From Opitutaceae bacterium TAV5 (GTDB taxonomy: Bacteria > Verrucomicrobiota > Verrucomicrobiia > Opitutales > Opitutaceae), in assembly GCA_000242935.3 (NCBI GenBank), contig CP007053.1, positions 6,619,001-6,683,000 on the forward strand: a stretch of DNA of 64,000 bases, read 5' to 3'. The notes below the pieces were generated by a model that was not told the origin of the DNA, did not search any database, and saw only the letters and a program-made list of their open reading frames with translations. Below are positions 18,671-50,299 of this stretch, in pieces. The number at the start of each line of letters is the position of its first letter. Position 1 is the first letter of the stretch. The position numbers and the translations under genes are program-made.

Positions 18671-18849
18671 CCTGAAGACCGCAGCAGAGGGAACCGCTAA
18701 AGGACGCTAACGGACGCTAAACAAAGACATGGTCAGGCAGGATGACCCGACGATGTCTTCACCCGCAGGAGAATGTTCCGGTCTCCTGATTTCTTCATCC
18801 ATCTGTTCCCCTTTAGCGACCTTTAGCGTCCTTTAGCGGTTTCAACTTC
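18671..18849. repeat. large palindromic repeat, 'CCGCTAAAGGACGCTAA' family, uninterrupted copy
   Basis: The left part has gaaccgctaaaggacgctaac and the right part ccttttagcg-type words ending gtcctttagcggtttcaac. The centre (about 18722-18805), read on the minus strand, matches 48776-48860 at about 80% by eye. It is the relative of the interrupted copy at 48726-49029. The remaining parts of the gap 18535-18890 show no gene. Confidence 0.85.
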
Positions 18850-18890
18850 TGAATCAGGGAAAAAACAGCCGTGAAGGGACGCGAGGGCGG

Positions 18891-48697: not shown

Positions 48698-48725
48698 GGG
48701 GAAAAACCGAACACTGAAAGCGGAT

Positions 48726-49029
48726 GCAGAAGTTGAAACCGCTAAAGGACGCTAAAGGTCGCTAAATGAGAACAGGTTGACGATGGAATCAGGAGAGCGG
48801 GGCATTCACCTGCCGGGTGAAGACATCGTTGGGACATCCTGCCAGGCCATGTCTTTGTTTATACCAAAGCCCCAAAGCCTTCGGATTTTTACACAAAGGC
48901 CGCAAAGAGCGCAAAGGATTGCCAGTTACCTTCTTCGCGTCCTTTGCGGCCTTTGTGTAAAATCAAAAACATTCGGAACGCTGGTATTAGCGTCCTTTAG
49001 CGGTTCCCTCTGCTGCGGCTTTCAGGTTT
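48726..49029. repeat. large 'CCGCTAAAGGACGCTAA' palindrome interrupted by a 125-bp element
   Basis: The left part (48729-48766) and right part (48987-49029) match, with high similarity, the reverse complement of 18671-18849, including the central region before the interruption. Compared with that copy, one 9-nt agcgtccgt unit is missing at the junction. The interruption is 48862-48986. This covers most of the gap 48698-49098; no gene is seen. Confidence 0.85.
48862..48986. mobile_element. 125-bp non-autonomous element, copy A (MITE-like)
   Basis: Ends are TACCA and TGGTA (inverted). The interior has complementary arms ttttacacaaaggccgcaaa / tttgcggcctttgtgtaaaa. TTA lies on both sides (48859-48861 partly, and 48987-48989), compatible with a 3-bp target duplication. 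It differs from copy B (49506-49630) at 3 of 125 positions by eye. It codes for nothing. Confidence 0.8.
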
Positions 49030-49061
49030 CAGCTTTTCAGCGTTTTCAAAGCGCTGCCCGG

Positions 49062-49092
49062 TTGAATTTCTCCGCAACCCGGTTACGATAAA
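49062..49092 (+). promoter_or_regulatory. candidate promoter close to the GNAT gene start
   Basis: TTGAAT (49062-49067) and GATAAA (49087-49092) with a 19-nt spacer; the GTG start is 6 nt beyond. It is similar in placement to 46596-46624 but weaker. Confidence 0.35.
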
Positions 49093-49098
49093 CGCACC

Positions 49099-49416
49099 GT
49101 GACCGGGGATACAGACACCGCCATTCCCTATCTGCATAGCTGCACGGCCGGAGACACCGTGTGGATCATGTACTTTTTTGTGCCGCCGGAGCTGCGCGGC
49201 CACAATCTCGGCCGGACGATCATCCGCAAATGGGAGCGCACCCTTCCCTCGCATATCCGCACCATCCGGCTGCGCGCACCGACCAGGGCCGACTCCTGCC
49301 CCGGCGTTTTCTGGACAAAACTCGGTTTCCGCTACGTGCGCCTGTCCGACGAACCGCTCTACAGCGAGTACGAAGTCACCGAGAACACCGTCATGGAAAA
49401 ACTCCTGCGGGGGTAG
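49099..49416 (+). CDS. short GNAT-like N-acetyltransferase
   Basis: 105 residues from a GTG start. 'VWIMYFFVPPELRGHNLGRTIIRKWER' is the acetyl-CoA-binding core of GNAT proteins (R/Q-x-x-G-x-G/A type, here RGHNLG), and 'SCPGVFWTKLGFRYVR' the later GF motif. At 105 residues it lacks the first strands and helices of a usual GNAT (140-170), so it is either a minimal form or an N-terminally truncated gene beside inserted repeats. The substrate is unknown. Confidence 0.65.
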   Translation: MTGDTDTAIPYLHSCTAGDTVWIMYFFVPPELRGHNLGRTIIRKWERTLPSHIRTIRLRAPTRADSCPGVFWTKLGFRYVRLSDEPLYSEYEVTENTVMEKLLRG

Positions 49417-49505
49417 CGTCCTCGCGCCCGCGGGCAGGATGCCCGCTACGCAGAAGCTCGCAGGTCCGGCGTGCTCCGGCAGAACATTTAACATGCAACA
49501 TTTCA

Positions 49506-49630
49506 TACCAAAGCCCCAAAGCCTTCGGATTTTTACACAAAGGCCGCAAAGAGCGCAAAGGATTGCCAATTACCTTCTTCGCGTCCTTTGCGGCCTTTGT
49601 GTAAAATCAAAAACATTCGGGACCCTGGTA
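49506..49630. mobile_element. 125-bp non-autonomous element, copy B (MITE-like)
   Basis: Same length and ends (TACCA/TGGTA) as copy A at 48862-48986. Flanks are TCA and TTA. Outside it, 49486-49501 and 49661-49712 carry complementary aacatttaacatgcaacatt / aaatgttaaatattgagcg words, so this copy also appears to sit inside another AT-rich palindromic repeat. It fills the gap 49417-49705. Confidence 0.8.
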
Positions 49631-49705
49631 TTACACTCAACATTCAGCAACCCGGTATCCGTTTTCCCACTAAATGTTAAATATTGAGCGTTAAATGTTA
49701 AATGT

Positions 49706-50197
49706 TCAGTGTTCGATGTTCGGCGTTTTCCGCCCCGCTCCCTGCCAGAACGCCCGCGGCGTCTTCCCCGCATTCCGGTACCCTTCCAGCGGTGCCTCCC
49801 CGTTGTAGTGTAAAAGCCACTTCGCCAGTTCCTCCCGCAGCCCCGTCAGCGCCGGCTCCGGCAGGGGGCGGCTTTCCCTGCCCCGCTGCCACCCGTCCAG
49901 CAGCCGCTCCTCCATCTCCCGCAGCCGCAGCGCTCCCCGCCCGCATTGCAGCCCGTGCCGCCTCATGATGTTGCCCACCGTGGCATGGGTCAGCCGCACG
50001 CCGTGCCTGCCTTTCACCTGCGCCTGGATCTCCCGAAACGTCGTATCCGGATTTCCCCGCATGATCGCCACAACCGTCGCCACCACCTCGGGGCCGGTCG
50101 AGACCGGGCCTTGCCCCAACACCATGCCCCGCGCCAGCGACACCGCCGCCCGCCAGTCCGCCGCCGGCCCCTCTCCTCGCTGTTTTATCGTCCTCAT
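49706..50197 (-). pseudogene. transposase/integrase remnant: HTH part joined to C-terminal tail, catalytic core missing
   Basis: An open frame of 163 residues (ATG at 50197; an earlier in-frame start at 50242 is less likely). 'TTFREIQAQVKGRHGVRLTHATVGNIMRRHGL' (about 65-96) is a winged-helix HTH of IS481/IS630-type transposases. 'LREELAKWLLHYNGEAPLEGYRNAGKTPRAFW' (about 125-155) resembles the C-terminal end of rve integrases (YN-E-P-xGY...TP). The DDE core of about 120 residues that should lie between is absent. The join keeps the frame, so a small DNA-binding product is possible. No terminal inverted repeats of a complete IS were found. Confidence 0.55.
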
Positions 50198-50234
50198 TTT
50201 CACGTATCCGGCTTTCAGGAAATGTATCTGTAAA

Positions 50235-50299
50235 TTAACCACAGAGTCACAAAACCTCCTCTTCCGGTTTTCTCTGTGTCTTTGTGTCTCCGTGGTTAA
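50235..50299. repeat. short palindromic repeat, 'CCACAGAGTCACAAA' family
   Basis: Arms ttaaccacagagtcacaaaa and the complementary tttgtgtctccgtggttaa. A shorter, more compact member of the family at 1030-1150. Confidence 0.88.

Follow-up and report, generated by a model that had tools for sequence, protein, structure and literature searches.

A 125-bp block in the genome of Opitutaceae bacterium TAV5, a verrucomicrobium of the termite hindgut (PMC4358385), is a non-coding, non-autonomous miniature transposon (MITE) present in about 47 copies. From comparisons of its ends and flanks, we consider it likely that this MITE was mobilised in trans by a DDE transposase from a branch related to IS630, and that the repeat hosting one of its copies is an IS1380-type element. 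The window that we analysed is a stretch of 64,000 nucleotides (G000:C1:6619001-6683000) in a total genome of 7,417,673 bases (chromosome, 7,317,842; remainder, 99,831), and within it a clean filled/empty pair is found for two kinds of non-autonomous element together. Positions without a contig name are those of the window unless otherwise stated.

Copies, ends and target duplications of the 125-bp element

Copy 1 (48862-48986, plus strand), delimited from the sequence and from genome matches, runs from TACCA to TGGTA and is flanked by TTA on its left (48859-48861) and on its right (48987-48989). As originally noticed, the block recurs at 49506-49630 (plus strand) with the same length, orientation and ends and with three differences. 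This copy 2 has TCA on its left (49503-49505), unlike the TTA on its right (49631-49633), and is a copy in which the match between the flanks has been lost. Searching the genome with the 125-mer returned 41 full-length or near-full-length matches (best E 8.6e-60), 13 of them at least 98% identical over the full length, so that the repetition greatly exceeds what chance would give. Further, more diverged copies are present beyond these 41, and a subgroup of 117 bp is missing 8 nt close to the left end. The terminal inverted repeats (TACCAAAGCCCCAAA / TACCAGCGTCCCGAA) are imperfect across the outer 15 nt. Among 94 relatives, including one genome of the same genus, we found no full-length match, only the inner arm motif, and therefore the spread in TAV5 has been recent and local; a plasmid collection searched with the element DNA likewise gave no match.

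We then compared the three bases outside both ends, which are identical in 35 single copies (36 rows, one of which joins two neighbouring copies at 4175712-4176035 of the chromosome) and in four more (L010, L096, L105 and L107). All of these identical flanks, bordering at least 39 copies, fit TNA (TTA, TAA, TCA or TGA), where a 3-bp flank match would be expected by chance once in 64. The duplications are direct and not inverted, and so do not represent a continuation of the palindrome. The TTA duplication suspected at the outset is thus seen at copy 1 (TTA/TTA) but not at copy 2 (TCA/TTA), and across the genome the duplicated sequence is TNA. Nearly all copies in the genome end sharply at TACCA/TGGTA, with no gradual variation of the borders, and some lie inside other repeats, among them further copies of the MITE itself. 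From the duplications and empty sites we infer mobility; the fixed ends, TNA duplications, clean filled/empty pairs and nested copies all agree with the original reading that the small element moves as a discrete unit.

The interior of copy 1 is a palindrome whose 30-nt arms (48887-48916, with the 9-nt units ACACAAAGG, CCGCAAAGA and GCGCAAAG, and 48933-48962; both annotated on the plus strand from complementarity and DNA folding) are 90% complementary and form a strong hairpin (DNA folding z = -4.8). An RNA function of the MITE was unsupported (2 of 38 pairs covary; covariation term about zero), and Rfam at gathering thresholds returned nothing in the window.

Copies 1 and 2 lie in direct orientation (48862-49630) around a 105-aa reading frame (49099-49416, plus strand), outside the element, whose weak GNAT-like similarity falls below the Pfam cut-off. 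We rejected composite movement of this frame between the two copies, as the flanks TTA/TTA and TCA/TTA fit no outer duplication. A transposase remnant with weak HTH_Tnp_Tc3_2 and IS481-like matches (49706-50242) adjoins copy 2. Two copies (L023 and L024) lie inside older MITE-like arms, at the TNA of GTGTAAAATC or TTTTACACC.

The larger host element and its filled and empty sites

Copy 1 fills a larger, IS1380-like MITE on the minus strand (48719-49026, placed by alignment to other copies), the left border of which is degenerate (AGCGGATGCAG for CCTGGATTCAG). An uninterrupted copy with ends CCTG...CAGG lies at 18671-18858 (plus strand, likewise aligned to copies), and the larger repeat matches its reverse complement on both sides of the 125-bp block, as had been noticed before. 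The repeat is real, but its limits, first given as 48726-49029, are corrected by its true ends. Removing 48862-48986 and one TTA from the window leaves a site of 180 nt, which can be aligned across the junction to L043, a further copy in the genome, without a gap, so that the proposed filled/empty comparison holds. Eight further copies of the larger element, as well as the copy at 18671, have exactly one more 10-nt unit than the emptied site. Since L043 is gap-free and these copies are one unit longer, the imperfect junction is a matter of unit-number variation among host copies and not a defect of insertion. The extra unit first described in the uninterrupted copy is indeed present, but it measures 10 nt (GCGTCCGTTA) and not 9, and its absence is shared by L043.

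When empty, the larger element is non-coding and about 180-190 bp long, with about 15 genome copies ending in CCTGAAAACCGCAG and CCTGGATTCAGAAGTTG. Six copies have perfect 5-bp duplications (CTGAA, TTTAT, TTCAT, ATGAA, TTTAA and GTAAC), and at the copy in the window (48719-49026) a 5-bp duplication of its own is not recognisable. Because of the CCTG...CAGG ends and the 5-bp duplications, the most fitting reading of the larger element is an IS1380-type MITE, apparently orphaned here. Of 150 genomes in the bacterial family, 44 contain IS1380 transposases, and these relatives end in CCTGGATTC..AAGTTG-like sequences and show 5-bp duplications; the ends of IS1380 loci read CCTGGATTCCTAAGTTG (L263), CCTAAAAACGGCAG (L276) or similar, with identical 5-bp flanks at eight. 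While the larger element resembles this family in its CCT-type ends and 5-bp duplications, it differs in its small size and lack of coding capacity, and no IS1380 transposase (NF033539) was detected in the TAV5 genome at E <= 1e-10. In the window, the 125-bp MITE inserted at a TTA among the repeated units of this second MITE.

Candidate mobilisers of the 125-bp element

We propose that an IS630-related DDE transposase, supplied in trans, would bind the two near-identical ends (TACCARMGYCCCRAA...) and cut exactly at TACCA/TGGTA; the MITE would then insert at a TNA trinucleotide, with repair duplicating the TNA. The suggestion that a transposase with TACCA ends should be sought was borne out in part, as we found an IS630 branch combining TACCA ends with TNA, one member of which resides in a MITE copy, but no insertion sequence (IS) with the extended ends. 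The extended MITE end (TACCANNGNCCCNAANNNT), searched in the TAV5 genome, gave only element copies and no parent IS carrying the full ends, and a scan of 1.2 Mb of chromosome for pairs of TACCA ends bordered by the same TNA gave nothing but copies of the 125-bp MITE. The parent IS has probably now been lost from the TAV5 genome.

One pair of extended ends, 1,263 bp apart (L102, G000:C1:6441329-6442591), is a MITE copy carrying a TNA-type IS630 inserted in its loop. This IS has TACCAAGTTGCATTC at both ends (TACCAAG) and TAA/TAA flanks, and the empty form of its site, GAAGGTAACTGG, is known from other MITE copies. Its split transposase exceeds the cut-offs of both Pfam DDE_3 (6.4e-23) and the NCBIfam IS630 model, placing an IS630-type transposase in an IS that shares ends with the MITE; about the first six bases (TACCAA) are in common with the MITE end, after which the IS diverges. 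Its two reading frames join at seven consecutive A, and the same is seen in ISAzs14; a programmed frameshift is possible in both.

ISAzs14 and related IS630-family ISs, from Azospirillum and others, resemble the MITE in their termini: ISAzs14 has the ends TACCAAAGCC/TACCAGAGCC and TTA/TTA flanks. Unlike the MITE, ISAzs14 is an autonomous element of about 1.18 kb that encodes a transposase, and the likeness stops after about ten bases. Among IS630 relatives taken from plasmids and from the same bacterial class, with IS ends placed by a script that did not score the flanks, 18 of the 28 with detectable ends had identical 3-bp flanks, all 18 of them TNA; TACCA-type ends and TNA duplications occurred together in 14. 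A split with support 95/94 in a tree of the DDE part divides all TNA types from the TA-type ISs (the resident L112, which is a long branch, and L241). L112 is one of four copies (L112-L115) of another IS630-like IS in the same genome, with TAGAGCATWTTAAAT ends and classical TA duplication.

IS630/Tc1/mariner elements are defined by a TA duplication (PMC7325037), whereas both the MITE and the IS branch that shares its ends duplicate a 3-bp TNA. As published definitions give TA and the branch gives TNA, we call the mobiliser IS630-related and take the branch to be a variant, not a textbook member. A partial literature search found no paper joining IS630 with TNA. A comparable case is RUP of Streptococcus pneumoniae, a 107-bp MITE of about 100 copies that inserts at TA targets and is ascribed to IS630-Spn1 (PMC2229807). 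RUP is likewise short and non-coding, with IS630-family-like ends and inferred trans-mobilisation, but in contrast to its TA insertion the 125-bp MITE duplicates TNA, has TACCA ends and carries arms of 9-nt units.

The ends and duplications together suggest that a transposase of the TNA branch moved the TAV5 copies, and three other explanations were weighed against a lost IS630-related parent. Duplication of a 3-bp TNA target classically marks the IS1031 subgroup of IS5 and PIF/Harbinger, so another TNA-duplicating group of this kind could move the MITE, with its TACCA likeness to IS630 a coincidence. IS5-family transposases do occur in the TAV5 genome (L103:590-1444); however, the one resident IS5 element inspected does not show TACCA at the end examined, Tourist/PIF-Harbinger and IS1031-type elements share the duplication with the MITE but differ in transposase family and ends, and coincidence would have to account both for the 14 IS630 relatives in which TACCA-type ends and TNA co-occur and for the ten bases (TACCAAAGCC) that ISAzs14 has in common with the MITE end. 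We judge this explanation to be quite unlikely. We give somewhat more room, while still doubting it, to mobilisation by the single resident IS630 (L102) and not by a lost parent. L102 holds the sole TNA-branch transposase found in the genome and has TACCA and TNA in common with the MITE, yet its ends depart from those of the MITE after some six bases, it is a single copy split in frame at the A run, and it sits inside a MITE copy that was already present.

The strong hairpin, and the occurrence in other genomes of palindromes whose arms are similar but which lack transposon ends, would also fit a REP-like palindrome spread through recombination or hairpin-based copying, with no transposon involved. 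REP and BIME sequences are palindromic and of high copy number, as is the MITE, but they are without target duplications or sharp transposon ends. The MITE ends are sharp and lie outside the hairpin, its sites show 3-bp duplications and exact empty forms, and it is not a 20-40 nt palindrome with a GTAG or CGTC tag, having neither tag at its ends. This account therefore seems highly improbable, and an IS630-related transposase acting in trans remains our preferred reading.

Unit-array arms and a wider class of palindromes

In both MITEs the arms are arrays of 9-10-nt units (CGCAAAGNN, CGCTAAAGGA) at fixed spacing, namely ACACAAAGG-CCGCAAAGA-GCGCAAAGG (9 nt) in the 125-bp element and CGCTAAAGGA-CGCTAACGGA-CGCTAAA (10 nt) in the larger one. 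Across 1.2 Mb of the chromosome (G000:C1:1-1200000), exact 6-mer triples spaced 8-12 nt apart formed 110 clusters, a figure that includes coding low-complexity sequence, versus 7 in an order-4 Markov control. Many of them look like inverted pairs in intergenic sequence, built from the units CACGAAA, CACGGAT, CGCTAAA, CGCGAAT, CACTAAT and CGCAAAG. Palindromes of this class are alike in their arms of two to three near-identical units spaced 9-10 nt apart and differ in loops and flanks (L143-L202; L281-L360). The exact palindrome CGCAAAGnnCGCAAAG...CTTTGCGnnCTTTGCG was matched in public genomes in at least 119 stretches, with Flavobacterium, Gammaproteobacteria, Cyanobacteria, Acidobacteria, Planctomycetota, Chloroflexi, Nitrospiria and the archaea Methanoperedens and ANME-2 among the matches listed. 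The pattern CCACGGATnnCACGGATnnnCACGGAT is present in 48 of 384 genomes of the bacterial class to which TAV5 belongs, where spacer bases vary freely, and its reversed-pattern control gave zero throughout. In the cases read by eye, we noticed no TACCA...TGGTA or CCTG...CAGG end pairs around class palindromes, and a partial literature search found no paper on the unit motifs.

A 1.7-kb element encoding a 581-aa protein is also found in such arrays, in three near-identical copies (L400, L403 and L405; G000:C1:2567611-2569191, 5680434-5682014 and 7234373-7235953). All three lie in a 9-nt-unit array in the same register, before RCAAAG, with no target duplication visible, and one lies within a MITE copy. 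The protein has no match in Pfam or NCBIfam, and a diverged homologue in another genome (G507) is apparently outside any such unit array. An old MITE copy in the region of G000:C1:7115618 (L110) carries a short insert in the same register as the 581-aa element, with ends related to those of that element; the insert itself contains another unit palindrome.

As a tentative explanation, which we rate below an even chance, some DNA-binding or recombination machinery may recognise the class, with ends of unrelated transposon families (IS630-TNA and IS1380) having been placed around its palindromes and the 1.7-kb element inserting into such arrays at one register. The arms may instead be shared by chance or through common descent.

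The TNA branch and the shared arms hold more interest than the nesting itself. The duplications expose an IS630-type branch that would copy TNA and not TA, which bears on cutting and target choice in the superfamily, and the shared unit-array arms connect ordinary MITEs to a palindrome class found in Bacteroidota, Pseudomonadota, Cyanobacteria, Acidobacteria, Planctomycetota, Chloroflexi, Verrucomicrobia and methane-oxidising archaea.
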